From positions 1 through 24,870 of the IMG/VR virus record IMGVR_UViG_3300013132_000244: DNA of 24,870 nt; one strand, given 5' to 3'. The translations under genes were made by a program, and so were the position numbers. Source of the stretch: a virus. Positions 2,626-23,870 of this stretch are shown piece by piece (position 1 is the first letter of the stretch; each line of letters begins with the position of its first letter). The notes beneath the pieces were generated by a model that made no database searches, was not told the origin of the DNA, and worked only from the letters and a program-made list of their open reading frames with translations.

Positions 2626-4548
2626 TTATTTGACCGGACAGGCCCCGGTTGAGCAATCTTCAAGGGCGAGATCGCCGGTACCCGCATTCTGCATGACCAC
2701 GGAGAAATCCAGTTTGTCGCACAGCTTCTCGTACTGCTCCGCGTCGATCTCCTCGTAGGGCGGCAACGGGAAGTTGTGGTCGCTGTGGAGCAGGAACGAC
2801 ACGGACTTGACGCCCTGGTCGTAGTTCTTGGCCAGCCAGTCCTTTATCCCGTCCAGCTCTTCCTTTTTGTAGTAAACGGTGACCGAGACGGCGTTGTCGG
2901 CCCATATCTTCTGCATTCTCTTTACCCATTCAAGCTGCTGGATCGCAGTCATTTCCGACGCCAAAACGGCGTTCTCGGGCGACTTGCAGGGGAAATCCAC
3001 GACATAGCGATGGTGGTCCTCTCTGCCGTCGATTCCGATGTCCCATTGCACCCTGTATCCGCGCTTGCGACAGAGGTCGACGAGTGGGTCGGCGGCGCCG
3101 AATCTCACCCTTCGGATGTAGTAACGGGCGTAGGCGGGGTGGACGCCGGGCGTCACGCCGGGAAGCAGCGATAGGGTGCCCGAGGGTTGCACCGTGGTCA
3201 GCCTGACCGAGACGGGCAGGCCGTTGCCCTTGGAAAACTTCTCGTCGTAGTCCCTGAGGTGCTCGTAGGCGGGCGAGAGCCAGGAGATTTGCTCGTCCGT
3301 GGCCTGCAGGATCCCCGTGACGTTCTGACCGAGCCGGGCGTTTTTCTTCACCACGTCCGCCGTCTTCTGGTAGGGGTAGGACATTCTCGTCACCTGCTTC
3401 TGGACCCTGTAGAGCAGTTCCGAGATCTCCTTGAACTGGCCGAGAGACTCGATGTTCGGTAGGAATATCGTGGCGAGGTTGCAGGATTCGCCGTCGGCAA
3501 GACCGATCTCGGCGCAGGGGTTGAAACCCTCGATCGTGGGGTCCGATTTCTTTTCGCCGAGGCGACCGAAAGTCCTCGCAAGTTTCCTGTTCACGAGACC
3601 GTACGGCTCCCCCGAGCCGTCGTAACCCTTCCACAGCTCGGGGAGGATCTCGTCAAAGGAGTCGGCATAAATGCTGTTGTTCGAGTTCGCCCTCCACGCT
3701 GGGATGGATCCCGACGACCAGTTCTTCGCCCTGAGGAACAGCACGTCGTCGGGGTCCCCGATGGCGATTTGGGCCGAACGCCGCGAGGAACCGGACACCA
3801 CGATCCGGCCAATTATGTTGCAGATGTCGAGAACGTCGATTGACCTCAGCTTCTTGCCCTCCCGATTCTGCATCACCTTGCATATGTCCTCCACGCCCTC
3901 TATCAGGGCCTGCGGACCCGACGCGGTGCCGCCGAAGGTCTTCAGCGGCGCGCCGAACTGGCGAATGAGAATCGTTGAGTAGGTGAAGGATTTGCCCGTT
4001 TCGAAAAACGATTTCAGCGAACTGTGGAGCAGGCGGCGCCAACCGCTCCTGCTGTCGGGGACAATTATGTCTGCGTCGTTCGTGCGCTCGTGGGTGATCG
4101 TCACCCCAGGTTTCACCTTCGGGAGGTCGTGAATCTTGGACCGCTCGACGGAAAATCCAACCCCGCCGCCGAGCATGAGGTAGTCGAACAGCAGCTCAAA
4201 GTCCTCGACGGTTTCGATGTTCGTGAAGTAGCAGTTGTTCAGCGATGTGCCACTGAACTCCTTTACAAGGGGCGTCCCGAGCTGCCACAGGGCCCGGCCT
4301 GCTGGCAGACAGCGGAGGTTGAACATGTGATCGAATAGTTTCTCGGCCTCGGCGTCGCTTAGCTGCGCGCCTATCTCGAGCGCGCCGTTGACGGTGCGAG
4401 CGCAGGTCTCAACCCATGTCTCGTTCCGCGAGTCGTCGGCGAGCCTCCTGCTGTAGGTGCGGAGATAGACGATCTCGCCCAAACCACCGAAACCCCACGG
4501 CGCCTTTTTCGAAGCGTATGCAGACAAGAACTCTTTTGACAATGACAT
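2626..4548 (-). CDS. nrdJ: Adenosylcobalamin-dependent ribonucleoside-triphosphate reductase (class II)
   Basis: This enzyme reduces ribonucleotides to deoxyribonucleotides using a radical generated from adenosylcobalamin, with no oxygen requirement. The product is 640 aa, somewhat shorter than the roughly 740-residue Lactobacillus leichmannii enzyme it resembles. Visible catalytic features are the first redox cysteine in LNNCYF (about C106), the N-x-C-x-E finger in GFNPCAEIGL (about N343, C345, E347), the partner cysteine in GESCNLAT (about C356), and the C-terminal shuttle pair CSTGAC (about C632 and C637), three residues from the end. The ATG at 4548 is preferred because GGGGG lies 5 bases upstream; a TTG at 4608 would add 20 unlike residues. 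It probably boosts dNTP supply during infection, provided the host supplies B12. No cobalamin riboswitch fits in the short upstream gap. Confidence 0.93.
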   Translation of the reverse strand: MSLSKEFLSAYASKKAPWGFGGLGEIVYLRTYSRRLADDSRNETWVETCARTVNGALEIGAQLSDAEAEKLFDHMFNLRCLPAGRALWQLGTPLVKEFSGTSLNNCYFTNIETVEDFELLFDYLMLGGGVGFSVERSKIHDLPKVKPGVTITHERTNDADIIVPDSRSGWRRLLHSSLKSFFETGKSFTYSTILIRQFGAPLKTFGGTASGPQALIEGVEDICKVMQNREGKKLRSIDVLDICNIIGRIVVSGSSRRSAQIAIGDPDDVLFLRAKNWSSGSIPAWRANSNNSIYADSFDEILPELWKGYDGSGEPYGLVNRKLARTFGRLGEKKSDPTIEGFNPCAEIGLADGESCNLATIFLPNIESLGQFKEISELLYRVQKQVTRMSYPYQKTADVVKKNARLGQNVTGILQATDEQISWLSPAYEHLRDYDEKFSKGNGLPVSVRLTTVQPSGTLSLLPGVTPGVHPAYARYYIRRVRFGAADPLVDLCRKRGYRVQWDIGIDGREDHHRYVVDFPCKSPENAVLASEMTAIQQLEWVKRMQKIWADNAVSVTVYYKKEELDGIKDWLAKNYDQGVKSVSFLLHSDHNFPLPPYEEIDAEQYEKLCDKLDFSVVMQNAGTGDLALEDCSTGACPVK

Positions 4549-9368: not shown

Positions 9369-9785
9369 ATGCGCCTCGTGAGGACGAGGGGCACCCGGCC
9401 CGAGCGGGCCGTCGCGTCGCTCCTGAGGGCCTCGGGGATCCGCTACAGGTCGAACCTGAGGGGGATGCCGGGCACGCCCGACTTCGTGCTGCCCGAGGAG
9501 CGGGCCGTCATATTCGTCCACGGGTGCTTCTGGCACGGGTGCCCGAGGTGCTTCAGGGCCCCAAAGCGGAACAGGGCGTGGTGGCTGCGCAAGATAGAGG
9601 CCAACCGCCGCAGGGACGGCAGGAACGAGCGCAGGCTCCGCAGGGCGGGCTGGCGGGTGATGACGGTCAGGGAGCACGACCAAATTTCACGGACGGCGCG
9701 GCGCCTTTCCACATTCCTTGGTGGAGCGTGCGACGGACGCCGCCACCGCCACTCGGGTAGATCCGGGCGACCCCGGAGGGGCTGA
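9369..9785 (+). CDS. vsr: Very-short-patch-repair (Vsr)-like DNA mismatch endonuclease
   Basis: Vsr nicks DNA at T:G mismatches that arise by deamination of 5-methylcytosine. The 138-residue product keeps the family spacing: TRGTRPE (E12), GTPDFVLP (catalytic D38), FVHGCFWHGCPRC (H51 and H56, C53 and C58/C61 for zinc), then NRAWWLRKIEANRRRD and RRAGWRVMTVREHD. Offsets D to H of 13 and H to H of 5 equal those of the E. coli enzyme (D51, H64, H69). A Cys replaces one expected zinc His. No cytosine methyltransferase gene is in the window, so this is an orphan copy; it may act as a nicking repair or homing-type endonuclease. The arginine-rich tail after residue 118 is atypical. Confidence 0.82.
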   Translation: MRLVRTRGTRPERAVASLLRASGIRYRSNLRGMPGTPDFVLPEERAVIFVHGCFWHGCPRCFRAPKRNRAWWLRKIEANRRRDGRNERRLRRAGWRVMTVREHDQISRTARRLSTFLGGACDGRRHRHSGRSGRPRRG

Positions 9786-10120: not shown

Positions 10121-10150
10121 ATCCTACAGCCCAAAGGCCGGGAGTGCCAA
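10121..10150 (-). promoter_or_regulatory. Promoter TTGGCA-N18-TAGGAT overlapping the tRNA-Leu 3' end
   Basis: On the - strand the -10 is TAGGAT (10121-10126), 8 bases before the ATG at 10112. The best -35, TTGGCA at 10145-10150 with an 18-base spacer, is the 3' acceptor end of tRNA-Leu. Confidence 0.35.
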
Positions 10151-10228
10151 GGGAGGGACTCGAACCCTCACGCCCTCGCGGGCGCCAGCTCCTAAGGCTG
10201 GTGCGTCTGCCGATTCCGCCACCCCGGC
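10145..10228 (-). tRNA. tRNA-Leu (anticodon UAG)
   Basis: The 84-base - strand sequence forms a class II tRNA: acceptor GCCGGGG/CCTTGGC (two G-U pairs), anticodon stem CCAGC/GCTGG with loop CTTAGGA (anticodon TAG, reading CUA), a long variable arm built on GCCC-GCGA-GGGC, and T arm GAGGG-TTCGAGT-CCCTC. The discriminator is A and no CCA is encoded. It lies about 100 bases from the start of the low-complexity region. A TAGGAT at about 10238-10243 on the - strand could be its promoter -10. Confidence 0.93.
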
Positions 10229-10329: not shown

Positions 10330-11380
10330 TGGCGCACCCCCCTGTGTCGCCTGCGTGTCGTGCGTGTCGTGTGTCGCCTGCGTGTCGTGTCGCCTGCGTG
10401 TCGTGTGTGTGTGTCGTGTGTGTGTGTCGTGTGTGTCGCCTGCGTGTCGTGTCGTGTCGCCTGCGTGTCGCCTGCGTGTCGTGCGTGTCGTGCGTGTCGC
10501 CGTGAGCGTGTCGTGTGCGTTGCGTGTGCCTGTGTGTCTGCGTTGCGTGTGTGCGTTGCGTGTCTGCGTTGCGTGTGTGCCGTCTGCGTTGCGTGTGCCT
10601 GCGTGTGTGCTGTGTGTGTGCCTGCGTGTGTGCTGTGTGTGTGCGTTGCGTGTCTGCGTTGCGTGTGTCTGTCTGTGTCTGTGTGCCGTGTGTGCTGTGC
10701 CGTGCGTGCCTGCCCCCTGCCCCCTGCCTGCGTGTGGCGTGTGTGGCGTGTGCTGTGCGTGTCGCCCTGCCCTGCCTGCCCTGCCTGTGTGTCGCCCTGC
10801 CTGCCTGCCCTGCCTGTGTGTCGCCCTGCCTGCCTGCCTGCCCTGCCCTGCGTGTGTGTCGTGCTGTCGTGTCGTGTGGTGCTGTCGTGCCTGCGTGTCG
10901 TGCTGTCGTGTCTGTGTGTCGCCCTGCCTGTCGCCTGTCGTGTGTCGTGTCGCCCTGTCGTGCTGTCGCCTGTCGTGTCGTGCTGTCGCCTGTCGTGCCG
11001 TGTGTCGTGTCGTGCGCCCTGTCGTGTGGTGCTGTCGTGTGTCGCCCTGTCGTGCTGTCGTGTCGTGTGGTGCTGTCGCCTGTCGTGTCGTGTGTCGTGT
11101 CGTGCGCCCTGTCGTGCCGTGTCGTGCTGTCGCCCTGTCGTGCGCCCTGTCGTGTCGGTGCGCCGTGTCGGTGCGCCTACCGTGTCGCCGTGTGGTGCGC
11201 CTATGCCTGCCGTGCGCCTGCGCCTATGCCTGCCGTGCGCCTGCGCCTGCCGTGCGCCTGCCGTGTGGTGCGCCTGTGCCTGCGCCTGCCGTGCGCCTGC
11301 GCCTGCCGTGCGCCTGCCGTGTGGTGCGCCTGTGCCTGCGCCTGCCGTGCGCTGTGCTTGCCGAACACTCGTTCGCCCCC
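10330..11380. repeat. Low-complexity, adenine-free word-repeat region, left block
   Basis: About 1.05 kb of + strand is built almost only from C, G and T; adenine is nearly absent. The vocabulary shifts in sub-blocks: TGCGTGTCG and GCGTTGCGTGT words (10340-10690), CCTGCC and TGTGTGTCGCC words (10690-10860), GTGCTGTCGTG and TCGCCCTG words (10860-11150), and GTGCGCCTGCC words (11150-11370). Because every stop codon contains A on one strand and T on the other, no frame closes on either strand. I treat the long frames as non-coding artefacts. The sequence looks like the product of repeated slippage and short duplications. Confidence 0.85.
11236..11347. repeat. Tandem duplication, 56-base period
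   Basis: Two adjacent copies of a 56-base unit made of GCGCCT, GCCGT and GTGGT words. The landmark CCGTGTGGTG starts at 11261 and again at 11317. This recent tandem duplication shows that the region expands by unit duplication. Confidence 0.7.
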
Positions 11381-11403
11381 CTGTGGTGCGCCCGAAACGA
11401 TAC

Positions 11404-11432
11404 TTGACTTGTCCTAGTTATGTCGCTAGTGT
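11404..11432 (+). promoter_or_regulatory. Promoter P1: TTGACT-N17-TAGTGT, leaderless
   Basis: A near-consensus -35 TTGACT (11404-11409), a 17-base spacer and -10 TAGTGT (11427-11432) end 7 bases before the ATG at 11440. P2 at 14499-14527 on the other strand shares CTTGACTTGTC and ATGTCGCTAGTGT with it. Confidence 0.75.
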
Positions 11433-11439
11433 GTGGTGT

Positions 11440-11682
11440 ATGAAAATAGTCCTACTCACCGAGAGCCTCAACCTTCGTGAGACCCTTCGCCTCGCTCGCC
11501 TCGCTGAGCGTCTGCCCGTTTCCCGTTTCCGTTTCGGTTCGCCGTGCCGTTTCGTTCGTGTTATTGACTTGACGGTTCACCTCGTTCTGCCCGAACTGTG
11601 TGAGCGTGTCGGTGCGTTGCGTGTCGCTCGCTACCTGCGTAGCACCTCGCCACGCTGGGGTCGCTCGTGGCGCAAGTGGTGA
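11440..11682 (+). CDS. Small gene embedded in the low-complexity region (80 aa, function unknown)
   Basis: Starting exactly where P1 predicts a leaderless mRNA, the frame encodes MKIVLLTESLNLRETLRLARLA, then a mixed segment with VRVIDLTVHLVLPELCERVG, ending in a basic tail (PRWGRSWRKW). Unlike its surroundings it uses all four bases and has an ordinary amino-acid composition. No family is recognised. It is basic and leucine/arginine-rich, with an amphipathic first helix; nucleic-acid or membrane binding are possible. Toward its 3' end the DNA grades into the same words (GTGTCGGTGCGTTGCGTGTC) as the flanking repeats, so the repeats may have grown from gene material like this. The open frame running in from the left is an artefact. 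Confidence 0.6.
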   Translation: MKIVLLTESLNLRETLRLARLAERLPVSRFRFGSPCRFVRVIDLTVHLVLPELCERVGALRVARYLRSTSPRWGRSWRKW

Positions 11683-11710
11683 GCAAGGTGCGTCGTGCGT
11701 TGCGCTCGCC

Positions 11711-11871
11711 GTTCGCCGTTGCGTAGGCGTTGCGTCTCTCGCCGTGTGCGTGTGTCGCCGTGTGCGTCTCTCGCCGTGTGCGTCTCTCGCCGTGCGTCTC
11801 TCGCCGTGTGCGTCTCTCGCCGTGCGTCTCTCGCCGTTCGCCGTTGCGTAGGCGTTGCGTCTCTCGCCGTG
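11711..11871. repeat. Direct repeat pair, 125 bases apart
   Basis: A segment of about 36 bases beginning GTTCGCCGTTGCGTAGGC occurs at 11711 and again at 11836. The intervening DNA is itself made of CGTGTGCGTCTCTCGC words. Confidence 0.7.
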
Positions 11872-12269
11872 CGCCGTGTGCGTGTGTCGCCGTGTCTCGC
11901 CGTGCGCCGTGCGTCTCTCGCCGTCGGCGTGTGGTGCGTCGTCGTCGTCGCCTGCGTTGAGTGGGCTGACGATATCGCTCGCCGTTGAGCGAGTGCGCTA
12001 GTGGTGCGTGTGCGCCACGATACGCCGTGCGTCGGTGAGCGTCGCCGTGCGCCGTGCGTGTCTCGCCGTGCGTCGCCGTGCGTTGCCGTGAGCGTCGCCG
12101 TGAGCGTCGCCGTGTGCGTGTCGCCCTGCGTTGCCGTGTGCGTGTCGCCCTGCGTGTCGCCGTGTCTCGCCGTGCGTTGCCGTGTGCGTGTCTCGCCGTG
12201 TGCGTGTCTCGCCCCGTGTCTCGCCGTGTGCGTGTCTCGCCCTGTGTCTCGCCGTGTGCGTGTCTCGCC

Positions 12270-12344
12270 CTGTGTCTCGCCGTGTGCGCTCGCCCTGTGT
12301 CTCGCCGTGTGCGCTCGCCCTGTGTCTCGCCGTGTGCGCTCGCC
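12270..12344. repeat. Minisatellite, 25-base unit, three copies
   Basis: Three exact copies (12270-12294, 12295-12319, 12320-12344) of a unit that begins CTGTGTCTCGCC and ends GCGCTCGCC. Partial copies flank them on the left. Confidence 0.8.
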
Positions 12345-13395
12345 CTGTGCGTGAGCGTCGCCTATGGGTGCGCTCGTCGCCGTGTGCGCTCGTCGCCGTG
12401 TGCGTGTGCCGTGCGTATCGGTGAGCGTGTCGCCGTGTGTCGCCCTGTGAGTGTGTCGCCGTGCGTTGCCGTGTCTCGCCGTGCGTCGGTGCGTGTCGGT
12501 GAGCGTGTCGCCGTGCGTCGTTCGCCGTCGTCGTTCGCCGTCGCCGTTCGCCGTGCGTCGTTCGCCGTGCGTCGTTCGCCGTGCGTCGGTGAGCGTCGCC
12601 CTGCGTGTCGCCGTGTGTCGTTCGCCGTCGCCGTGTGTCGGTGAGCGTCGGCGTGAGCGTCGGCGTGTGAGCATCACGGGTCGCCTATGGGTGCGCCTGC
12701 CGTGCGTAGGCGTGTCGGTGCGCCGTGCGTGTGCCGTGCGTGTCGGTGAGCGTGTGGGTGCGTCGGTGCGTATCGCCCTGCGTCGCCGTGCGCCGTGCGT
12801 ATGCGTCGGTGCGTGGGTGCGCCGTGCGTGGTGCGTATGCGTGGGTGCGCCGTGCGTGTGTCGGTGCGTGTCGGTGTCGGTGCGTGTCGGTGTCGGTGCG
12901 TCGCCGTGCGCTCGTCAGTGCGTCGCCGTGCGCTCGTCGGTGCGCCCTGCGTCGGTGCGCCGTTGCCGTGCGTGTGTCGTGCGTGTATCGGCTCGCCGTG
13001 CGTCGTGCCGTGCGTCGCCGTTGCCGTGTCGCCGTGCCTCTCGCCGTGTCGGTTCGTGCGCCGTGCGTGTCTCGTCGTCGTGCGTGTCGCCCGTCGTGCG
13101 TGGGGTTCACGGTGCGCCGTCGTGCGTGTCGCCCGTCGTGCCGTTCGCCCGTCGTGCCGTTCGCCCGTCGTGCGTGTCGGTGCGTTGCCGTATCCGTTGC
13201 CGTGAGCGTGTCGCCGTGAGCGTGTCGGTGCGTGAGCGTGTCGCCGTGAGTGCGTTCGTCGTGCGCCGTCGTGCGTAGTGCGCCGTCGTGCGTCGTGCCG
13301 TGCGCTCGTCGTGCGCCCTGCGCTCGCCGTGCGTCGTGCCGTGCGCTCGTCGTGCGCCGTGCGCTCGTCGGTCGTCGTGCGCCGTGCGTGAGCCT

Positions 13396-13410
13396 CACGG
13401 GTGGCACGGG
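13396..13410 (+). repeat. Paired CACGGG box 1
   Basis: CACGGG-TGG-CACGGG, flanked by GAGCCT on the left and GTCGCCCGTCG on the right. The second half can pair with the right flank (ACGGG-GTCG-CCCGT). It is one of the few places in the low-complexity block that contains adenine. Confidence 0.65.
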
Positions 13411-13585
13411 GTCGCCCGTCGTGCGTGTGCGTCGCCCGTCGTGCGTGTGCGTCGCCGTGTCGGTGCGTGTCGTATCGCCGTGCGCCTGCGTGTGTCGTCG
13501 TGCGTCGCCGTGTCGGTGCGCCTGCCGTGCGTCGTGCGTCGCCGTGAGTGCGCTCGCCGTCGTGTCGCCACGCCCTGCGCTCGCC

Positions 13586-13639
13586 GTTCGTCGGTGCGTC
13601 GCCGTTCGTCGGTGCGTCGCCGTTCGTCGGTGCGTCGCC
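13586..13639. repeat. Minisatellite, 18-base unit, three copies
   Basis: Three exact tandem copies of GTTCGTCGGTGCGTCGCC, followed by three shorter GTTCGTGCC-type units. Eighteen is a multiple of three, but no coding function is supported. Confidence 0.8.
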
Positions 13640-13748
13640 GTTCGTGCCGTTCGTGCCGTTCGTGTGTGTGCCGTGTGTCGGTTCGCCGTGTGCGTGTGCG
13701 TCGTCGTGCGTCGGTCGGTGTCGCCCGTCGTGCGCCGTGCGTGAGCCT

Positions 13749-13763
13749 CACGGGTGGCACGGG
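13749..13763 (+). repeat. Paired CACGGG box 2
   Basis: CACGGG-TGG-CACGGG with the same GAGCCT left flank as box 1, 353 bases further on. The right flank gives a CACGG-GGTCG-CCGTG hairpin. Confidence 0.65.
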
Positions 13764-14131
13764 GTCGCCGTGTGTCCGTCGTTGCGTCGGTGCGTCGTGC
13801 GTGTGTCCGTTCGCTCGCCGTGTCCGTTCGCCCGCCGTGTTGGTGCGCTCGCCGTGTCGGTGCGCTCGCCGTGTCGGTGCGCCGTCGGTGCGCTCGCCGT
13901 GTCGGTGCGCCGTCGGTGCGCTCGTGTGTCTCGCCCGTCGGTGCGCTCGTGTGTCTCGCCCGTCGGTGCGCCGTGCGCCCGTCGTGTCGTGCGTCGCCGT
14001 GTCGGTGCGCTCGCTCTCCCTGCGTGTGCGCCTCTCTGCGTCGCCCTGCCGTGTCGTGCGTGTGCGCCCGTCTTGTTGGTCGTGCGTCGCCGTCTGCCGT
14101 CGTGCCGTGCCTCTCGTCGCCCTGCGACCCT

Positions 14132-14146
14132 CACGGGCGACACGGG
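14132..14146 (+). repeat. Paired CACGGG box 3
   Basis: CACGGG-CGA-CACGGG, flanked by GACCCT and TGCGCCCGTCG. ACGGGCG can pair with CGCCCGT to its right. It lies at the right edge of the low-complexity block. Confidence 0.65.
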
Positions 14147-14178
14147 TGCGCCCGTCGTGTTCGTCGTCGGATACGACT

Positions 14179-14221
14179 GAGCCTCGCCACTCTGCGCTAG
14201 GTGCGCTCGGTGGCGAGGCTC
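14179..14221. terminator. Perfect 12-base inverted repeat, likely terminator
   Basis: GAGCCTCGCCAC (14179-14190) and its exact complement GTGGCGAGGCTC (14210-14221) enclose a 19-base loop that itself contains GCGC-TAGGT-GCGC. It begins 12 bases beyond the stop of the leftward gene at 14233. There is no U run, but the stem is strong. It also marks the right boundary of the low-complexity block. Confidence 0.6.
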
Positions 14222-14232
14222 GTCGTGCCGTG

Positions 14233-14451
14233 CTAGACGGTCATCAGGTGTCGCCCGTCAAGTTCCCAGACGCTCAGCCAAGTCGTTGCTATCAACTTCG
14301 CCTGCGCCTCGGTCTGGCAGGGGATAACGACTATGTGAGTGTCGCTACTGTCCCCCGTCGGACTGCTTATCCATATCTCAACGGTGTCGCCGTTGGTTAT
14401 CACCGTGCGAGGCGTTCCCTTCATCACGGTTATCGGTCGGTTCGTGTTCAT
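14233..14451 (-). CDS. Hypothetical protein (72 aa) under promoter P2
   Basis: The product (MNTNRPITVMKGTPRTVITNG, then DTVEIWISSP, DTHIVVIPCQTEAQAKLIATTWLSVW) has three likely strands followed by a helix, a compact alpha/beta protein of unknown family. The ATG at 14451 has a purine-rich GAAGGGGGTGAAG immediately upstream. A more upstream start at 14511 is rejected because it lies inside the P2 spacer. The predicted leader is about 40-45 bases. Base use is ordinary, unlike the neighbouring repeats. Confidence 0.7.
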   Translation of the reverse strand: MNTNRPITVMKGTPRTVITNGDTVEIWISSPTGDSSDTHIVVIPCQTEAQAKLIATTWLSVWELDGRHLMTV

Positions 14452-14498
14452 CTTCACCCCCTTCTCCCTTCTCTGGTGGGGTTCTCCCCACGAACGCA

Positions 14499-14527
14499 AC
14501 ACTAGCGACATTTGTGAGACAAGTCAA
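14499..14527 (-). promoter_or_regulatory. Promoter P2: TTGACT-N17-TAGTGT, facing left
   Basis: On the - strand, -35 TTGACT (14522-14527), a 17-base spacer and -10 TAGTGT (14499-14504). It matches P1 over CTTGACTTGTC and ATGTCGCTAGTGT. Upstream it shares the 17 bases GCGAGGGTGCTTGACTT with P3, in inverted orientation. Confidence 0.75.
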
Positions 14528-14586
14528 GCACCCTCGCACCCCCCCCCGAACGGTGCGCCTGCGCCTGCCGTGCCGTGCCGAGGGCT

Positions 14587-14601
14587 CACGGGTGGCACGG
14601 G
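14587..14601 (+). repeat. Paired CACGGG box 4
   Basis: CACGGG-TGG-CACGGG followed by GTCGCCCGTG, allowing a CACGGG-GTCG-CCCGTG hairpin that an outer GGGTGG/CCACCC pairing can extend. Confidence 0.65.
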
Positions 14602-14818
14602 GTCGCCCGTGTCGCCCACCCTCGCCCGTCGTGTCGGCTCGCTCGCCCTGCCTGGGGTGTGCGCTCGCCGTGCGTCGTCTGGTCGGTGCGTGGTGCGCCC
14701 CCCGTGCCCGTCGCCCGACGCTTTTACGCCCCCCCCCTTGTGGTCGCCCCCCTGTGGTCGCCCCCCTGTGGTCGCCTGCGACGAGCCTGAGACACGAACG
14801 CCCCTAGCCCGACCGAGC

Positions 14819-14833
14819 CACGGGTGGCACGGG
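14819..14833 (+). repeat. Paired CACGGG box 5, next to P3
   Basis: CACGGG-TGG-CACGGG ends 9 bases before the P3 -35. The left part also reads as GCCAC-GG-GTGGC, an inverted repeat. Its position suits an activator site. Confidence 0.65.
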
Positions 14834-14842
14834 CGAGGGTGC

Positions 14843-14871
14843 TTGACTTCCGACGGCGAACGCCCTATCGT
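14843..14871 (+). promoter_or_regulatory. Promoter P3: TTGACT-N17-TATCGT
   Basis: -35 TTGACT (14843-14848), a 17-base spacer and -10 TATCGT (14866-14871). A GGGGC-GAAC-GCCCC hairpin at about 14880-14893 lies in the short leader before the ribosome-binding site of the gene at 14911. Confidence 0.7.
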
Positions 14872-14910
14872 GAGGGTGTGGGGCGAACGCCCCGAGAAGG
14901 GGAGACAGAT

Positions 14911-15270
14911 ATGAGGCAGTCATCAGCGTCAGGGAGGGAACGCACGACGGTCGTGCCGTTCGGCGTGTCGTTGCGCCGTGCGCTCGTCGTGGGCGCACTC
15001 GCCGTCGTGGCGTGGGGGGCGCACGACCTGCTCGGTGCGAGCCCGTCGTTCGTGTGCGACGCCACGCCCGTCGTCGCCGAGGAGGGCGACACGCTCTGGG
15101 CGATCGCCGAGGCGAGGTGCGACGGCGACATACGGCTTGCGACCGACGAGGCATACCGTGCCTTCGGCTCGCTGTCGGTGGGCGAGTTGGTGGCTATGCC
15201 CGAGCGTGAGGGCTGTCGCTTGGTCTTGGTCGGTGCGCCGGCGCCCGAGCCGAGGCAGGACTGCCGATGA
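14911..15270 (+). CDS. Membrane-anchored LysM-like protein (119 aa)
   Basis: A basic N-terminus is followed by one hydrophobic segment (about 24-42, ALVVGALAVVAWGAHDLLG) and then a LysM-like domain: VVAEEGDTLWAIAEARCDGD, then LSVGELVAMPE. LysM modules bind peptidoglycan or chitin; this one would face the cell wall. Three cysteines outside the membrane may form a disulfide. The ATG follows AAGGGGAGA by about 7 bases, and P3 lies 40 bases upstream. Its stop overlaps the next start (ATGA). Possible roles are wall attachment, superinfection exclusion or lysis control; none is shown. Confidence 0.7.
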   Translation: MRQSSASGRERTTVVPFGVSLRRALVVGALAVVAWGAHDLLGASPSFVCDATPVVAEEGDTLWAIAEARCDGDIRLATDEAYRAFGSLSVGELVAMPEREGCRLVLVGAPAPEPRQDCR

Positions 15271-15506
15271 GGGCACGAGCGAGGTCGCTGACCCTCACGG
15301 GTGCCACGGGCGTGATGTTCGTCGCCCACTCGCTGTGGGTCGTCGTCGGCGCCGTGATGTCCGTGGTCGGCTCGCTGTCGTGGCTCACCTACTTCGGCGT
15401 CGGCTTGCTGTCGTGGCTCGCCCTTCGGGGTGCGCTGTCGCTCGCCGAGAGGGCGCTGTCGGAATACATCGGCACGATCGTCGGCGACCGAGCCGAGTGG
15501 GACTAG
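15267..15506 (+). CDS. Small two-helix membrane protein (79 aa)
   Basis: The ATG overlaps the previous stop (ATGA), so the gene is coupled to the LysM-like gene. After a basic start (MRARARSLTLTGATG) come two hydrophobic segments, about residues 15-37 and 40-58, then a charged helix (LAERALSEYIG) and an acidic end. Holin-like topology is possible, and the pairing with a wall-binding partner is suggestive, but no family is recognised. Box 6 lies inside the first codons, encoding LTGATG. Confidence 0.65.
   Translation: MRARARSLTLTGATGVMFVAHSLWVVVGAVMSVVGSLSWLTYFGVGLLSWLALRGALSLAERALSEYIGTIVGDRAEWD
15296..15310 (+). repeat. Paired CACGGG box 6, within a coding region
   Basis: CACGGG-TGC-CACGGG with the GACCCT left flank also seen at box 3. 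It lies about ten codons into the gene at 15267. Confidence 0.55.
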
Positions 15507-15542
15507 GGGCGCACCACGGGCGCCACGGGCTCGCCCCTGCGA
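15507..15542. terminator. Bidirectional hairpin containing paired CACGGG box 7
   Basis: The 36 bases between convergent stops form GGGGCG...CGCCCC around CACGGG-CGC-CACGGG (15515-15529). Position and stem fit a shared terminator; no T run is seen. Confidence 0.5.
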
Positions 15543-16196
15543 TCAGTCGCCGTCCGAGCCCCCCACGAAACTCTTGGTCTCGAACCCGCGCTCCACCATC
15601 GCTATCGTCAGGGCGTCGTAGAACAGAACGCCCATACCGTCCCTGGGCGCATCCCACCCCACGGGGAGTGCGAGAGCTTTGGCGAAGAGCAGGGGATACA
15701 TCCCCTCGTGCCCGACCACGCGCTGGCGGCCTGGGACGAAGTTCTCCTCGTCCCACACGAGCGCCTTCGGCACGGCGTAGCTGTAGGGCTTCGTGACGAA
15801 CGAGACCTCCTCCCCGACGACATGGGTCACGGTGATCGCCTCCTTGATGTGGGCGTTGCCCCTGGCGAACTCGTTCGCGAAGTCCCTCCCCTTCGTCTCG
15901 AGCGGCTCGTCGGAGACGTACCCCTCGGCGACCATCGTTATCTCGTCGGCGCCCCAGCCCTGCCGGAGTATGGCCGCGGCCTCGGAGACGGCGAGGAACC
16001 TGACGTCGGGCGGCATCCGCGCCATGGCGTCGGTCATTCTCGTCACCGCGGCCAGCCGGTCGGAGCGCCAGCCGTAGAGCACCTGGTTCATGTCCTCGCC
16101 TATGCCGAACTCCTTGACGCCCTTGCTCTTGGTCTCGACGGCGGCACCGAGCACGAGCGCCAGCTTCATCATCCGACCCTCGTAAAAGACGTCCAT
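15543..16196 (-). CDS. Hypothetical protein (217 aa)
   Basis: I do not recognise this protein. It starts MDVFYEGRMMKLALVLGAAVE, contains VTRMTDAMARMPPDVRFLAV followed by SEAAAILRQGWGADEITMVAEGYVS, and ends with VLFYDALTIAMVERGFETKS. It looks like a soluble alpha/beta protein with no signal peptide, which would fit an enzyme or a phage accessory factor. The ATG has no Shine-Dalgarno; TACCAT lies 6 bases upstream. Paired CACGGG box 8 covers the expected -35 region, hinting at regulation. Confidence 0.65.
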   Translation of the reverse strand: MDVFYEGRMMKLALVLGAAVETKSKGVKEFGIGEDMNQVLYGWRSDRLAAVTRMTDAMARMPPDVRFLAVSEAAAILRQGWGADEITMVAEGYVSDEPLETKGRDFANEFARGNAHIKEAITVTHVVGEEVSFVTKPYSYAVPKALVWDEENFVPGRQRVVGHEGMYPLLFAKALALPVGWDAPRDGMGVLFYDALTIAMVERGFETKSFVGGSDGD

Positions 16197-16202
16197 GCCC
16201 CA

Positions 16203-16208
16203 ATGGTA
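16203..16208 (-). promoter_or_regulatory. -10 element of a leaderless promoter (TACCAT)
   Basis: On the - strand TACCAT is followed by six bases and the ATG at 16196. The expected -35 position (16226-16231) is occupied by a CACGGG of box 8. Confidence 0.45.
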
Positions 16209-16215
16209 AATAAGC

Positions 16216-16231
16216 CACGGGTGCCCACGGG
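16216..16231 (+). repeat. Paired CACGGG box 8, between divergent genes
   Basis: CACGGG-TGCC-CACGGG, with a 4-base rather than 3-base gap. It lies between the divergent starts at 16196 (-) and 16278 (+). Confidence 0.55.
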
Positions 16232-16264
16232 GAAGGGGTTCCCCTACGGCGACCCCGGGTTGAC

Positions 16265-16270
16265 TAGCGT
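16265..16270 (+). promoter_or_regulatory. -10 element of a leaderless promoter (TAGCGT)
   Basis: TAGCGT is followed by seven bases and the ATG at 16278. No good -35 is seen. Confidence 0.4.
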
Positions 16271-16277
16271 GTTCGCC

Positions 16278-16466
16278 ATGGCACAGAAAAAGAAAACAAC
16301 CAAGAAATCAACCAGCGCAAAGAAGCCAGCCGTTAGCGCGGCTCCGAAGGCGACGCCCAAGGTGGAAGCACCGAAGCCCGTCTCCATTCCGAGCACGCCG
16401 CCACCGGCACCGGTCTTGACGCCGAAGAAGAAGAAGAACTTCCTCAGGCGCCTGCTCGGCTTCTAA
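16278..16466 (+). CDS. Lys/Ala/Pro-rich histone-tail-like small protein (62 aa)
   Basis: The product is a lysine-rich N-terminus (MAQKKKTTKKSTSAKKPAV), a Pro/Ala/Val linker with several PxP units, and a basic hydrophobic end (KKKKNFLRRLLGF). It lacks a folded core and resembles histone H1-like tails, or a cationic peptide with an amphipathic C-terminal helix. DNA binding or membrane association are both possible. The start is supported by a -10 seven bases upstream. It ends 6 bases before the stop of a convergent gene. Confidence 0.6.
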   Translation: MAQKKKTTKKSTSAKKPAVSAAPKATPKVEAPKPVSIPSTPPPAPVLTPKKKKNFLRRLLGF

Positions 16467-16472
16467 CCTCGC

Positions 16473-16799
16473 CTAGCGAGGAAACGCCCTGTAGGCCGTG
16501 CGCAGTATCCGCACGCCCTCGCTCGAGATGCGGTAGCAGTACGAGTCGCCACGGGCGGACATCGGCAACCTCCTCATCGCCGAGAAGCTCGCCGGGCTCT
16601 TGACGAGAACGCCCGCCGTCGTCAGGCGGTCAAGGGCGTCCCTCGCCTCGCTCACGCTCCCGAACCCCGCGTCCATGGCGCACAACTGGTATGCAAAGGT
16701 CGGCACCTCCGCCCGCCTCGACAGGATGAACAGCGACGCGACAAGCAGCCTGCGGTCGCCCGCCACCGCGTCCGCGCCTGCGCACCCCGTCGCGATCAA
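16473..16799 (-). CDS. Winged-helix-like hypothetical protein (108 aa)
   Basis: The product contains a helix with RRLLVASLFILSRRAEVPTF, a second helix SEARDALDRLTTAGVLVKSP, and a beta-wing-like YCYRISSEGVRILRTAYRAF, an order reminiscent of PadR/MarR-type winged helices. Assignment is tentative. The start is taken as the TTG at 16799, overlapping the previous stop (TTGA); a GTG further in is an alternative. Sequence upstream of 16799 in this frame is a shadow of the neighbouring gene. It is the last gene of a three-gene leftward operon beginning at 17325. Confidence 0.5.
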   Translation of the reverse strand: MIATGCAGADAVAGDRRLLVASLFILSRRAEVPTFAYQLCAMDAGFGSVSEARDALDRLTTAGVLVKSPASFSAMRRLPMSARGDSYCYRISSEGVRILRTAYRAFPR

Positions 16800-17068
16800 G
16801 CCTGCTCCGCCCCGCCCCCGTCCGTATCGGGCTCGGCGGTTCGGTTGCCCTTGCCCAGCAGGTCGCTCATCGTCGCGTTCAACTGCTCCAGCAGGGCGTT
16901 CGTCTTCTCCATGAGCTGCTCCACGCTCGTCAGCAGGACGATCGTCTGGACGGCGAGGTTGCCCTGGTCCTCGTACTGGGAGCGGAGGTCCCGGGTCACC
17001 TTCCTGTAGAGGCGGTCCTGGCGCCACGGGTCGTTCTTGTCGAACGGTTCGTCGACGTAGCCCGCCAT
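16796..17068 (-). CDS. Hypothetical protein with coiled-coil-like helix (90 aa)
   Basis: The charged N-terminus (MAGYVDEPFDKNDPWRQDRLY) leads to a long helix with a heptad pattern (LAVQTIVLLTSVEQLMEKTN, continuing ALLEQLNATMSDLL), likely oligomeric, and a disordered Gly/Glu/Asp end. No family is recognised. Its ATG overlaps the previous stop by one base (TGATG). Confidence 0.6.
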   Translation of the reverse strand: MAGYVDEPFDKNDPWRQDRLYRKVTRDLRSQYEDQGNLAVQTIVLLTSVEQLMEKTNALLEQLNATMSDLLGKGNRTAEPDTDGGGAEQA

Positions 17069-17325
17069 CAGGACGACGCCATCCCCGCGAGCTCCCTCGC
17101 CAGAATGCGGTCGAACGAGACCTGGAGCTGGGCGTGCCAGCGGGCGGCGTCCATCATCAGCGCCTGCATGACGACGAGCTCGGGGGGCAAGCTCGTCGGG
17201 ATCGCCGCGACGGGCGACTGGTTGCGGAACAGGCACGGCTCGGACAGCGCCATCAGCTTGACGAGCATGCCCGGTTGCACGTTCATCGGCTTGGCCGAGA
17301 CGGGGGACGCCTTGGTTTCGGTCAT
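17068..17325 (-). CDS. Hypothetical protein (85 aa)
   Basis: First gene of a tightly overlapping leftward trio. The product has a flexible N-terminus, a proline-containing middle (SPVAAIPTSLPPELV) and a helical C-terminus (MMDAARWHAQLQVSFDRILA). Not recognised; small phage proteins like this often act as host-takeover or virion accessory factors. Its ATG has one of the best promoters in the window, with the -10 six bases upstream and no Shine-Dalgarno. Confidence 0.6.
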   Translation of the reverse strand: MTETKASPVSAKPMNVQPGMLVKLMALSEPCLFRNQSPVAAIPTSLPPELVVMQALMMDAARWHAQLQVSFDRILARELAGMASS

Positions 17326-17331
17326 GCCGGC

Positions 17332-17360
17332 ATCCTAGGTGCCCGCGGGCTCGCAGTCAA
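17332..17360 (-). promoter_or_regulatory. Promoter TTGACT-N17-TAGGAT, leaderless
   Basis: On the - strand, -35 TTGACT (17355-17360), a 17-base spacer and -10 TAGGAT (17332-17337), 6 bases before the ATG at 17325. It begins 3 bases past the stop of the primase-helicase gene. Confidence 0.75.
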
Positions 17361-17363
17361 CAC

Positions 17364-19154
17364 CTAGAACTGCTCATCTTCGCGGAACGCATTCTCCCTC
17401 GGCGCCTTCACGGGCGCGGCCTCGGAGATCTCGAACGGGAACATCTTGCCCCGCCTCAGCTTCAGCGGCCACTGCCTCTCGTCCCTCGCGCCACGGAAGT
17501 GGCGAAGCTCGTAGGTGTAGCCGTCGGCCGACAGGGGGTCGGGGGTGAGCGATATGCCGAACTCGGGCCAGCGAGACCAAACGGCCGACCCGAACGGCCT
17601 CAGCTCGCGTGTCGCCATGTTCGTGCCGAGCGGGGCATGGTGCTCGAGCCACAGGGCGCAACCGTAGGCGTCCTTGACGGAGTCAAGGAACTTGGCGACC
17701 TCCACGGCCACGGACTCGGAGTTGCGACCGCCCGGGTCCACGTACGACTTGTAGAGCGGGCCGAACATGATCAGCTGGGGCTTCACGGCCTCGATGTGGC
17801 GGAACAGGTAGGAGCGGTCGTCCTCCCTGAGGAGGTCTATGCCCGACGGCTTCAGCAGGAGCGAGCCGTCCAGCGGGCGGGCCTTCTGGCCGAAGTCCCT
17901 CTCCACCCTGAGCTTGGCCCTCATGTAGGTGTGCCTGCTCATGCGACGGATGATGCGGTCGGGGTTCTCCAGGTCCACGAACAGGGTCCTCACGGGCGGC
18001 ATCGGCTGGAACGAGAACGGGTGTATGCCGAACGAGGACAGTATGGCGATCTGGCGGGCGAGCATGGTCTTGCCGACGCCCTCGGCGGCGACGATGATTA
18101 CCCGCTCCTTGCGCTCGAGTATGTCGGGGATGACCCAGTCGTAGCTCCCGTCGTCCTCCTCGGACATGAAGGCGTCCCACTGCACGAGACGGCCGGTGTC
18201 GATGCGCTCGCTGATGTAGGCGCCACCGAGGAGCGCCTGCGCCCTCGCCAGCTTCGTCGCCTCCTTCGCGGACCTGTCGGTCAGGACCTCGCCGATCTTC
18301 ATGGCGAGCTCCTCCATCGGGGTCACGACCTGCTCCAATTCCTCACGGGTGAGAGGGGCGACGTCCACGAGGTCGCTGAGCTTGAACCCCGCCTCGACGT
18401 GGTCGGTGACGTCCTTGTGGTTGGGCGCCCGAACGAGCGACACCTCGCAACCGTGCTCCCTCAGCGCCGCGAACACATCCGACGCGTACGAGATGCCCGC
18501 CTCGTCGTTGTCGGCGACGATCTCCACGATCCCGCCAGCGAGCCACTCGCTGAACTGCGGCTCCCACTTCCCCGACCCCGCACCCGACGGGCCCGTCGTG
18601 GCGACGAAACCGAGCGAGGTGAGCGTGTCGGCGTCCTTCTCGCCCTCCACGACGTACACGGGCTCGCCGTCGCCCACCGCCTTCAGCACGGCGGGCAGGT
18701 TGTAGAGGACCTTGCGCACGCCGTCCAGCGAGTAGACGTAGTCGCCGGGGACGTTGGGGTCCGGCCGCCTCTGCAGGAACGTCTTCTTGCCGTCCTCGGT
18801 GACGTAGCGGAGCTTCTCGTAGGCGAACTCGCCGTTCTCGTCGTAGTACTTGTAGATCTTCACGAGCTTCTTGCTCTTGGGCTTCTTCGGCTTCTTCTCG
18901 CGGGCGAAGTCCCCGGTCTTCTGGTCGGCGAAGAGCTCCGACGGCTTCATGCCCACGGAGGCGCAGATCTGCTCGAAGTCGCAACCGTTGCCCCTGTGGC
19001 AGTACACGCCGACGTTGCCGTTCTCGTCCCTCACGGACAGGGACGGGTTCTTGTCGTCGTTCCGGCACGGGCACCTCGCCATCCAGCGGTTGGGCCCGTT
19101 GGCCCTCACCCCGTCCAGCTTGGACAGGAATCGGTAGGCGGTCTCCGACGTCAT
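17364..19154 (-). CDS. Primase-helicase: CHC2-like zinc finger, TOPRIM and RecA-like ATPase
   Basis: The 596-residue product combines replication modules in order. A zinc finger at about 23-62 has CPC, then DDKNPSLSV, then YCHRGNGC (likely ligands C28, C30, C52, C58; the usual His is replaced by Cys). A TOPRIM domain at about 165-260 has VVEGEKDADTL (E170) and VADNDEAG (D215/D217), the metal-binding acids of primer synthesis. A RecA/RepA-like ATPase from about 340 has Walker A EGVGKT (about 358-363), TLFVDLENP as a Walker B-like strand and a conserved HH (WLEHHAPLG). It probably primes and unwinds phage DNA. The ATG at 19154 overlaps the WhiB stop (ATGA); longer versions are rejected because they run through the WhiB gene. 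The gene lies at the end of the leftward early operon. Confidence 0.87.
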   Translation of the reverse strand: MTSETAYRFLSKLDGVRANGPNRWMARCPCRNDDKNPSLSVRDENGNVGVYCHRGNGCDFEQICASVGMKPSELFADQKTGDFAREKKPKKPKSKKLVKIYKYYDENGEFAYEKLRYVTEDGKKTFLQRRPDPNVPGDYVYSLDGVRKVLYNLPAVLKAVGDGEPVYVVEGEKDADTLTSLGFVATTGPSGAGSGKWEPQFSEWLAGGIVEIVADNDEAGISYASDVFAALREHGCEVSLVRAPNHKDVTDHVEAGFKLSDLVDVAPLTREELEQVVTPMEELAMKIGEVLTDRSAKEATKLARAQALLGGAYISERIDTGRLVQWDAFMSEEDDGSYDWVIPDILERKERVIIVAAEGVGKTMLARQIAILSSFGIHPFSFQPMPPVRTLFVDLENPDRIIRRMSRHTYMRAKLRVERDFGQKARPLDGSLLLKPSGIDLLREDDRSYLFRHIEAVKPQLIMFGPLYKSYVDPGGRNSESVAVEVAKFLDSVKDAYGCALWLEHHAPLGTNMATRELRPFGSAVWSRWPEFGISLTPDPLSADGYTYELRHFRGARDERQWPLKLRRGKMFPFEISEAAPVKAPRENAFREDEQF

Positions 19155-19486
19155 TCGTAGCCCGTGCGGGCGACGGATATCTTGAGCTTCGACCTGATCG
19201 ACTTGCGGGCGTACTCGGTCGTGCCGCCCCAGATGCCGAATTGCTCCCACTCAAGGCCGTACATCAGGCACTCCAGTTGCACGGGGCATTTGTGGCATAT
19301 CGCCATCGCCACCGAGCTCGGCGAATCGTCGCGGGTGTCGTTGTACTTCAGGCTGTACCACAACTCGGTCGGATGCCCGACGCACGCGCCGCCCTTCGGC
19401 GGGCTCGGCACGCCGTGCGCCCCTCCCCTGCCGAATCTCGCCGCCGTCGGCGGCCTTCTGCCTAGAGTTCCTTTGTCCACGGGCAT
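19151..19486 (-). CDS. WhiB-family iron-sulfur transcription factor
   Basis: WhiB proteins carry an oxygen- and NO-sensitive [4Fe-4S] cluster and act with the primary sigma factor. All signature parts are present: C35 in GACVGHPTELWY, C64-x2-C67-x5-C73 in ICHKCPVQLEC, then the GIWGG turn (84-88) and a basic C-terminus (RKSIRSKLK). Phage copies such as TM4 WhiBTM4 interfere with host WhiB control and can affect superinfection. The ATG at 19486 has AGGAGG about 10 bases upstream; a TTG at 19510 is a less likely start. The stop overlaps the primase-helicase start, an unusual coupling of a regulator to replication. Confidence 0.9.
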   Translation of the reverse strand: MPVDKGTLGRRPPTAARFGRGGAHGVPSPPKGGACVGHPTELWYSLKYNDTRDDSPSSVAMAICHKCPVQLECLMYGLEWEQFGIWGGTTEYARKSIRSKLKISVARTGYE

Positions 19487-19522
19487 CGTTCGAATCCCTC
19501 CTTCGCGCAAGAAGGGTATCGT

Positions 19523-20038
19523 CTACATCAGGCGCAAGTCAATCCTTTTCCACGCCTCGTAGGCGAGCCTGCGGAGCGTCTTCCTCCTGCCGTCCACGGG
19601 CATGCGGAACGCCTCGTCGACGATGTCCCTCCTCCTGCGCAGGCAGGCGTAGGTGACCTCGAGGATCATCTCGTTCCAGGCGTCGGTGTTGCGGGCCATC
19701 AGCCAGGTCTTCGGGTCGTAGACGCCGTGCTTGGAGAACGCGTAGTCCTCTATGTCGGCCCTCGTGGTCACGATCTCCATGTGCCAGCCGACGTTCCTCT
19801 CGATAGCGAACACCAGGTCCATCACTCCGCTCTCGCCACGGGCGTCCTTGATCGCCTTGACGGCCTCGCCGAAGCGCCCCTCGGCGATCATCGCGCAGTG
19901 CGCGTCTATCTCGTCGAGTCTGTCCTTGAGCATCTCGTCGTTCTCGCTCTCGGCGATCTCCCTCATGATCTCGTAGTCCTCGAAAAATTCGGGCATCTCG
20001 TCCTCCCCCAGACCATCCTGCCAGTCCTCGTTCTCCAT
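19523..20038 (-). CDS. Hypothetical acidic protein (171 aa)
   Basis: The first 40 residues are very acidic (EDWQDGLGEDEMPEFFEDYE). The rest is helical, with ARGESGVMDLVFAIERNVGW, EIVTTRADIEDYAF and a basic C-terminal half (CLRRRRDIVDEAFRMPVDGR). No family is recognised. The ATG overlaps the upstream DUF932 stop by one base (TGATG), so translation is coupled. Extended frames upstream are shadows of the DUF932 gene. Confidence 0.65.
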   Translation of the reverse strand: MENEDWQDGLGEDEMPEFFEDYEIMREIAESENDEMLKDRLDEIDAHCAMIAEGRFGEAVKAIKDARGESGVMDLVFAIERNVGWHMEIVTTRADIEDYAFSKHGVYDPKTWLMARNTDAWNEMILEVTYACLRRRRDIVDEAFRMPVDGRRKTLRRLAYEAWKRIDLRLM

Positions 20039-21057
20039 CAGGAACCTAGCAGAACTTTCTGCACGGAGAGCTTCTTCTTCGTCGTCAGGGAACTCTCGTC
20101 CATGCTCGCTATGGCGAGCTCCTCGTTGCTCGTGTGGCGGTAGTGATCTAGGTACTCGCAGGCGGCGTTGTAGACCGACCACGCGTTGTGGCCGAAGGCG
20201 CCCGAGTTCCGGTCCGACAGGTACACCTTCGCCAGCAGGTTCCAGACCGACTCCCTGAACTCCCGCTCCCTCCCCGACTCGCCCGCTTTCTTCGGCTGGA
20301 CGATGTTGAGTATCTTCTCGTTGATCGTCCGCGAGGTGTTGGACACGGAGGCGAGGAACTCCACGGAGCGCCTGACCTCCTCCTTCCATTTCACGGATAT
20401 GCCGAGGACCTCACGGGCGTCCTGAATGATCGAGTCCACGTTGCGGGTGTGCCTCGCCGTGAAGACCCTTCTCGCCTCCTGCTCGCCGAGGATTATGGTG
20501 TTGTTGCACACGGCCCTCACCTCGGTGTTGGCGTAACGGATGGGCCAGACCCCGTCGTGGCCCGTGGATATGACGAGGTACCTCGCGAGTTTGTCGTTGA
20601 CATCGGAGCAGGCGATGTCCAGGACCCCGAGGTCTATCGTGGCGAAGAAACGCGACCCGCCCTTGAGGACTCCGCAGGTGTCAATCGCGGCGTTGCCGTC
20701 CGAAGCGTTGACGACCGCCAACGCCCGCTCGAGGACCTCCTTGTTCTGGCGGACCTCGTACCTGGTTCCAACGGTAGCCAGCGGGTCGAAGCTCCCGTCG
20801 TCGTTCTGCCTCATCGTGGCCCTGCCGTCGGGAATGATGATCGCCGTGCCATCGGAGTTCCTGATCAGCTCGCCCGAGTCGTCAACGGCGGCGACCTTGG
20901 TCAGCACGACGTCGTAGTCGGCGTGCGACGCGACGAGCATCTCTTCGAGCGTGCCGAGCCCCCTCACGGGCGTGCCGAGACGGTGCCACGGGATCTGACG
21001 GTCGTTGTAGGCGAAGCGGGTCCAGCCCGTCTTCGTCCTCTCCAAACCGTGAGCCAT
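20038..21057 (-). CDS. DUF932 (phage/plasmid-like, TIGR03299-type) protein
   Basis: The 339-residue product matches the DUF932 family found widely in phages and plasmids: an N-terminal WTRFAYNDRQIPWHRLGTPV, then a region with VGTRYEVRQNKEVLE, then LKGGSRFFATIDL, YLVISTGHDG and VCNNTIILGEQEARR, and a helical C-terminus ending in a basic TTKKKLSVQKVLL. Function is unproven; members often sit near replication or recombination genes, as here. The ATG at 21057 has GGAGGTGA at optimal distance and is chosen over a GTG three codons upstream that overlaps that site. It heads the leftward operon that includes WhiB and primase-helicase. Confidence 0.85.
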   Translation of the reverse strand: MAHGLERTKTGWTRFAYNDRQIPWHRLGTPVRGLGTLEEMLVASHADYDVVLTKVAAVDDSGELIRNSDGTAIIIPDGRATMRQNDDGSFDPLATVGTRYEVRQNKEVLERALAVVNASDGNAAIDTCGVLKGGSRFFATIDLGVLDIACSDVNDKLARYLVISTGHDGVWPIRYANTEVRAVCNNTIILGEQEARRVFTARHTRNVDSIIQDAREVLGISVKWKEEVRRSVEFLASVSNTSRTINEKILNIVQPKKAGESGREREFRESVWNLLAKVYLSDRNSGAFGHNAWSVYNAACEYLDHYRHTSNEELAIASMDESSLTTKKKLSVQKVLLGS

Positions 21058-21078
21058 TTTGTTCACCTCCGTGGTTTA

Positions 21079-21091
21079 ATTATCCCACAAA
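21079..21091 (-). promoter_or_regulatory. Extended -10 promoter, TTTGTGGGATAAT
   Basis: Read on the - strand, the same 13 bases as at 5007-5019 end about 21 bases before the ATG at 21057. It gives a short leader with a strong Shine-Dalgarno, unlike the leaderless promoters nearby. Confidence 0.55.
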
Positions 21092-21137
21092 AACAAGACT
21101 AATAAACTCGCGGTTAATCACGGGAAAGCGATAGGGC

Positions 21138-21166
21138 TTGAAAACCGCCACGGGGATGCGTAGTCT
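21138..21166 (+). promoter_or_regulatory. Promoter TTGAAA-N17-TAGTCT with CACGGG in the spacer, leaderless
   Basis: -35 TTGAAA (21138-21143), a 17-base spacer containing CACGGG at 21149-21154, and -10 TAGTCT (21161-21166), 6 bases before the ATG at 21173. A second CACGGG stands at about 21119. Confidence 0.7.
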
Positions 21167-21172
21167 TCGACC

Positions 21173-21925: not shown

Positions 21926-21959
21926 CCGACGCCACTTTCAGAAAATCTTTGCTTAGGGG

Positions 21960-21988
21960 TTGCAATCATCACGGGCAACCCATAGTGT
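21960..21988 (+). promoter_or_regulatory. Promoter TTGCAA-N17-TAGTGT with TCACGGGC in the spacer
   Basis: -35 TTGCAA (21960-21965), a 17-base spacer holding CACGGG at 21970-21975, and -10 TAGTGT (21983-21988). The leader to the ATG at 22064 is about 70 bases and ends in a purine-rich AACGAGAAAG ribosome-binding region. Confidence 0.7.
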
Positions 21989-22063
21989 TTCAGACAAGCA
22001 ATAGAGAAGCACAAATCTCAATTAGCGAATTAGACAACAACTACTAACGAAACGAGAAAGCAA

Positions 22064-22930: not shown

Positions 22931-22962
22931 ACTGGTCCCTGACCGATCAGACAGGACGGGTG

Positions 22963-23181
22963 ATGGACGAAACGAAAGACGAAGCCGAGGCCCCGAGGAC
23001 CGACGCGGGCGAGCGGGCGCACCTGGCGTCGCTGTGCGCGACGGTGTTGGACCTCACGGAGCAAGGCTTCACGATCGACGGCGAGACCCTCGCGGAAATC
23101 CGCAAGGCGGTCAACATCCCCCGGTGGATCGGCGATGTGCGGGACAACCCCTCGCTCATCGGGCTCCACGTGTGTAAATGA
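22963..23181 (+). CDS. Hypothetical protein (72 aa)
   Basis: The product has a charged N-terminus (MDETKDEAEAPRTDAGERAH), a helix (LASLCATVLDLTEQG) and the segment ETLAEIRKAVNIPRWIG. No family is recognised. The ATG follows AGGACGGG by a few bases. It is 32 bases after the ParB-like gene, and its stop overlaps the next start (ATGA). Confidence 0.6.
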   Translation: MDETKDEAEAPRTDAGERAHLASLCATVLDLTEQGFTIDGETLAEIRKAVNIPRWIGDVRDNPSLIGLHVCK

Positions 23182-23803: not shown

Positions 23804-23864
23804 AGGGCTCGTGGGTAGCAACCGCACGGAGAGGCGACTAACCGTGCGCAAAGCGAGGACGTTC

Positions 23865-23870
23865 TAAAAT
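23865..23870 (+). promoter_or_regulatory. -10 element of a leaderless promoter (TAAAAT)
   Basis: TAAAAT is followed by six bases and the ATG at 23877. The -35 is weak. Confidence 0.5.

Follow-up and report, generated by a model that had tools for sequence, protein, structure and literature searches.

A low-complexity tract of two adenine-poor blocks in an IMG/VR virus contig of 24,870 bases, IMGVR_UViG_3300013132_000244 (the window, to whose positions all coordinates refer unless a relative is named), is on balance probably a non-coding, satellite-like DNA locus that stands at a fixed place in a phage clade and has grown by slippage and duplication. The window, whose genes include those for a class II ribonucleotide reductase, a primase/helicase and a DUF932 protein, was compared with a near-identical relative (L002), a 98-kb genome (G001), a 52-kb genome (G002, of the same lineage as contig L006) and contig L005; L003 and L004 were also included. 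The carriers are probably a clade of uncultured phages infecting freshwater actinobacteria, a host assigned to the clade and not from this phage itself, on account of metagenome-assembled genome (MAG) contigs with the family of an 80-amino-acid (80-aa) phage protein and of LexA-type boxes. A literature search turned up no account of such a tract. Its parts in the window are as follows.

10331-11360, plus strand: tract A, a low-complexity block of GTGTCG, CCTG and CGTG words with 0.5% A
11683-14178, plus strand: tract B, satellite-like, 2.3% A, with words arranged into 16-56-bp units and these into higher-order blocks
14540-14790, plus strand: a weaker extension of word-like material with one further CACGGG element and CCCCCCTGTGGTCG repeats
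11228-11283, plus strand: a unit copy-number change within tract A between the window and L002

The adenine content of the flanks was 17-19%, AT skew ran at about -0.65 to -0.99 over both blocks, and G+C was 66-73% throughout. Most of both blocks held 41-114 distinct 5-mers per 300 bp, compared to a window median of 228, and the lowest count outside the tract in the 98-kb relative was 150. Repetition was nested, with words of 3-8 bp, units of 16-56 bp and blocks of approximately 300-460 bp, and the vocabulary shifted from one sub-block to the next. Tandem units of 16, 18, 25, 28, 30 and 56 bp were present, and 62 overlapping arrays of many periods were found, sharing no single consensus unit; repeat lags were 16, 18, 25, 28, 56 and 353 in the window and 389, 457 and 846 in G001. 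A sequence-only reading of this DNA had described two A-poor blocks at these coordinates, assembled from a few short words that change between sub-blocks and containing exact tandem units of 18, 25 and 56 bp, and had set them apart from clustered regularly interspaced short palindromic repeats (CRISPR), telomeres and simple tandem repeats; all of this was borne out.

The tract was reproduced in further contigs, and its length varied by units and blocks. L002 aligned to the window with 99.4% identity across 14.6 kb and contained the entire tract, with no base substituted, a single GT indel and one of the 56-bp units missing. In G001, tract B was approximately 1 kb longer and blocks that are single in the window matched at displaced positions, the best match of 13900-14178 falling at 2719-2984 and that of 13228-13850 at 3262-3833, so these blocks have been duplicated or moved. 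The changed unit count and the displaced blocks agree with the duplication proposed from the sequence, and as observed products they support growth by slippage and segmental duplication as the process. The tract would have been seeded by A-free short words, would have expanded as short direct repeats slipped during replication and recombined unequally with one another, and would owe its tolerance or retention to a position at a regulatory hub, between transcription units. A 29-bp element with a CACGGG core would, with its slowly changing surroundings, be the most likely sequence-specific part of tract B, and the remainder would be filler.

Equivalent tracts, which across the clade span 1.2 to 4 kb, were found at the same genome position beside the same kind of flanks in L005, L006/G002 and G001. 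Another lineage, of the G002 type, was represented by a pair of contigs whose names point to different samples and which match at 100% across 19.7 kb; their tract measured 1.2-1.4 kb, and copy number was equal. The words differed by relative: CACTC and GTGTCG in L005, CTCGTCG and CACAC in L006, and CGTCGT and CCCTGCC in G001. Position and flanks were retained among the related genomes to which the sequence-only reading had looked for synteny and the same skew, whereas the A-depletion was limited to the window, L002 and G001, with A at 9% in L005 and 13% in L006/G002. The trait common to all tracts is not A-depletion but a scarcity of purine-purine steps, which made up 1-7% in every tract examined versus approximately 25% in the flanks on the same strand, and a vocabulary of the GTGTCG/CGTG type, with GTGT, TGTC, CGTG and GTCG enriched on the same strand in all of them. 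The tracts probably share one ancestral tract, so neither common trait can count separately as a sign of selection. When IMG/VR was scanned, unfiltered, for exact occurrences of a shared 16-mer, 74 stretches were recovered and such a tract occurred only in contigs of this clade; the same 16-mer gave four single matches, none of them low-complexity, in 296 genomes from the class of an Ilumatobacteraceae MAG. The tract had no blastn match among phage isolates, a null result that is uninformative because BLAST masks low complexity.

Among known systems, the tract resembles minisatellites or variable-number tandem repeats in its short GC-rich direct repeats, strain-level change in unit copy number and hierarchical duplication; it differs in having no dominant unit, several kilobases of drifting vocabulary, a fixed position in a clade and one base nearly absent from one strand. 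Head-to-tail repeats of 10-100 bp and a copy-number change between close strains were thus both found and a single consensus unit was not, so that the tract behaves like a minisatellite yet is not a simple one. With eukaryotic satellite DNA of higher-order repeats it shares nested repetition, an element recurring every few hundred bp and fast turnover at a conserved position, but it lies in a phage genome, is much shorter, is irregularly spaced and has no known centromere-like role. For phages, whose genomes are tightly packed, it is exceptional and costly to carry 4 kb of non-coding, ever-reshuffled DNA at a conserved position. Were the tract passive, it would preserve a clean natural trace of how slippage and duplication proceed in a virus; were it functional, it would be an element working through composition and repeat structure and not through exact sequence. 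Such tracts break short-read assemblies, are masked by BLAST and may go unnoticed in viral metagenomes.

As judged from motifs and gene order, the tract sits at a regulatory hub of LexA-type palindromes, two matching promoters and two small conserved genes, with the low-A blocks lying between a leftward tRNA-Leu and a leftward 72-aa gene.

10144-10228, leftward: tRNA-Leu, left neighbour of the tract
11362-11375, no strand assigned: palindrome CGAACACTCGTTCG at the tract edge, matching the LexA/SOS-box core of Actinobacteria, its sole copy in the window
11404-11439, plus strand: promoter of the 80-aa gene, TTGACT-17-TAGTGT, 7 nt ahead of the ATG
11440-11682, plus strand: intact 80-aa gene P0002 of a small conserved phage protein family, between the two tract blocks
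14182-14221, no strand assigned: conserved hairpin GCCTCGCCAC...GTGGCGAGGC, without a T run, on the right border of the tract and 3' of the 72-aa gene
14233-14451, minus strand: 72-aa gene P0001, found in IMG/VR only in tract-bearing genomes, with a nonsynonymous-to-synonymous rate ratio (dN/dS) of approximately 0.17
14495-14528, minus strand: promoter of P0001, CTTGACTTG...TAGTGT, with the same core as the P0002 promoter

The core of the actinobacterial LexA box is CGAAC-N4-GTTCG (PMC9380542, PMC2248561). This core was found near a promoter in the window, as in LexA-regulated (SOS) phage promoters, which marks the palindrome as a putative operator; the window box differs from those systems in lying 28 bp upstream of the -35 box, and LexA regulation here is likewise putative. 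Equivalent palindromes occurred in L004, L005, G001 and G002 at tract edges or at the promoter of the 80-aa gene, and all four in the 52-kb G002 lay at the tract or at the two promoters. The promoter of the 80-aa gene, whose transcript would be leaderless, was missed by a consensus promoter scanner; it was near-identical in G001 and G002 and altered in L002, as was the ATG. Eleven substitutions between the window and L002 clustered within 77 bp (11380-11456) spanning the -35 box and the start codon of this gene, and L002 has lost both.

The sequence-only reading had suggested possible growth from gene material such as that at 11440. This was contradicted by the gap between the blocks, which is not decayed material: the gene there is intact and conserved, retains its promoter and has a dN/dS of approximately 0.16. 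The P0002 family, predicted with modest confidence to be all-helical and with the sequence SRFRFGSPCRFVR...YLRSTSPRWGRSWR, comprised approximately 50 loci in viral contigs and nine MAG contigs, mostly of freshwater Actinomycetota (L086-L134 and L226-L234); Pfam, PHROGs and phage isolates gave no match at the thresholds applied. A diverged second copy was observed elsewhere in G001 (L132). In G002, the 80-aa and 72-aa genes are adjacent and outside the tract, which means that the position of the 80-aa gene with respect to the tract has changed.

Several observations weigh against purely passive growth, and the first concerns the 29-bp element and its surroundings.

13388-13416, plus strand: exact copy 1 of the 29-bp element GTGAGCCTCACGGGTGGCACGGGGTCGCC
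13741-13769, plus strand: exact copy 2 of GTGAGCCTCACGGGTGGCACGGGGTCGCC
13228-13850, plus strand: part of tract B that changes slowly, with 4.7% mismatch against G001 over gap-free anchored stretches

The rate of change of the block at 13228-13850 is about as low as that of amino-acid sites, compared to a synonymous divergence between the window and G001 of 0.27-0.54 for most genes, which suggests constraint, although the alignment of low-complexity DNA favours matches and the objection is weakened to that extent. The lack of any tract substitution between the window and L002 and the same-strand vocabulary of tracts that do not align, which exceeds the expectation for unconstrained drift unless it was inherited, are also not what passive satellite growth predicts. 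A DNA-level function of the tract is accordingly kept in view as possible, at a chance well below even.

The best-surviving alternative, possible but with most of the probability against it, is a functional cis element, namely a replication origin, a recombination hotspot or a partition or packaging site, in which the CACGGG-type elements would be protein-binding sites and the words spacer or a loading zone. The slow substitution in the tract B block, the concentration of LexA-type palindromes at the tract and a primase/helicase and a ParB-like family gene close by are consistent with it. So is the semi-regular, one-strand direct arrangement of the 29-bp element, with partial copies beginning at 12667, 14124 and 14579, a spacing of 353-455 bp in the window and seven copies 317-461 bp apart, all on one strand, in G001; the spacing is irregular in both, and the paired CACGGG core is confined in the 98-kb genome to the tract and the sequence just right of it. 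In G002, however, the element is missing, with only degenerate forms seen by eye. Single CACGGG hexamers were strongly polar right of the tract whatever the gene direction (37 plus and 5 minus in window 12500-24870; 43 plus and 7 minus in G001 4-20 kb), and might act as an orienting, priming or recombination motif, but the window showed a weak polarity switch at the tract (Fisher p 0.006) and G002 showed none, and because the pattern left of the tract differs between genomes, the polarity does not establish an origin. GC skew tracked gene direction and so gave no origin evidence, and the tract lacks an A+T-rich unwinding region. Direct repeats near replication genes and a short element repeated on one strand recall, at the level of sequence, iteron-type replication and partition regions; in the latter the elements stand in tight tandem, compared to 0.3-0.5 kb apart here. 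Taken together, the polar motifs and LexA-type boxes are suggestive only as pointers to an origin or packaging role. A more specific and rather doubtful idea is that of a phage satellite, a hierarchical, base-restricted array with an embedded element that would act in cis as a locus for replication, recombination or segregation and be selected on composition and repeat structure, not on sequence. Dense T7-type primase sites (GTC) were rejected, since the enrichment of GTC fell short of that of other words.

A strand-specific mutational process stripping A from the plus strand on top of the repeats, by deamination or biased repair and perhaps with the neighbouring Vsr-type endonuclease, is improbable. 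Near-zero A across 3.5 kb, the Vsr gene adjoining the tract in the window and L006, and the T-rich third codon positions of the embedded 80-aa gene (24/81 codons versus 28/629 in the primase) would fit it. However, the tracts of L005 and L006/G002 retain 9-13% A, the 80-aa gene is T-rich at third positions in G002 too, where it lies outside the tract, and substitutions within the tract are lacking between the window and L002.

About as improbable is a template for a long, A-poor non-coding transcript or 3' untranslated region read from the 80-aa gene's promoter as far as the 14182 hairpin. That conserved promoter reads into tract B, no terminator-like site lies within the block and a conserved hairpin closes it; but in G002 the promoter points away from the tract, and tract A lies upstream of the promoter. 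Structure counts against it too: of the non-coding transcript template proposed from the sequence, a structured RNA was not supported, as folding against shuffled controls gave z near 0 on both strands, except that the plus strand of tract A was less stable than its shuffles, and an Rfam search returned nothing in the tract, only tRNAs and a sub-threshold match overlapping a tRNA. RNAs of the GOLLD/ROOL type were rejected on the same grounds, and repeats like those of Type III toxin-antitoxin systems because the 72-aa gene, which faces the tract, stands on the side that does not fit such a system.

An assembly artefact is very improbable. Four contigs (L003, L004, L005 and G001) end at or within the tract, but such breaks are expected because assemblers stall on real low-complexity DNA, and near-identical tracts recur in a contig pair of one lineage and identical ones in a pair of the other, named after different samples. 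A protein-coding or decayed gene can hardly be entertained, since the open frames of up to 512 aa follow from composition (a stop codon on either strand requires plus-strand A, which is nearly absent), the plus frames of tract B hold 12, 11 and 4 stops, and indels against G001 are of every length and break the frame, so that no frame is kept across relatives.

The Vsr-type mismatch endonuclease gene (Pfam PF03852) lies near the tract in two lineages, at 9369-9785 on the plus strand of the window and at L006:2301-2732 on the minus strand. Directly left of the tract, two to three copies of a CGGATAAATC-type motif were observed (window 9840 and 10253; G002 37269, 37807 and 37854), and the exact form was confined to these sites in the window and G002 contigs. 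In G001, directly past the position of the window's right end, approximately 13 kb (L144:1-11000; G001 ~17.5-31 kb) is poor in coding-like frames, with 66% G+C and a strong one-strand purine excess, and contains diverged repeated modules of up to ~140 nt spaced ~150-900 nt or more apart, without an Rfam match; it is possibly a group of large non-coding RNAs or a further repeat-built region of the clade. The same genome carries several giant genes, among them an open frame of 4972 codons at 59894-74812 on the minus strand (L145-L146), and a tmRNA gene (L145:11441-11821) with the tag ANKQFALAA.

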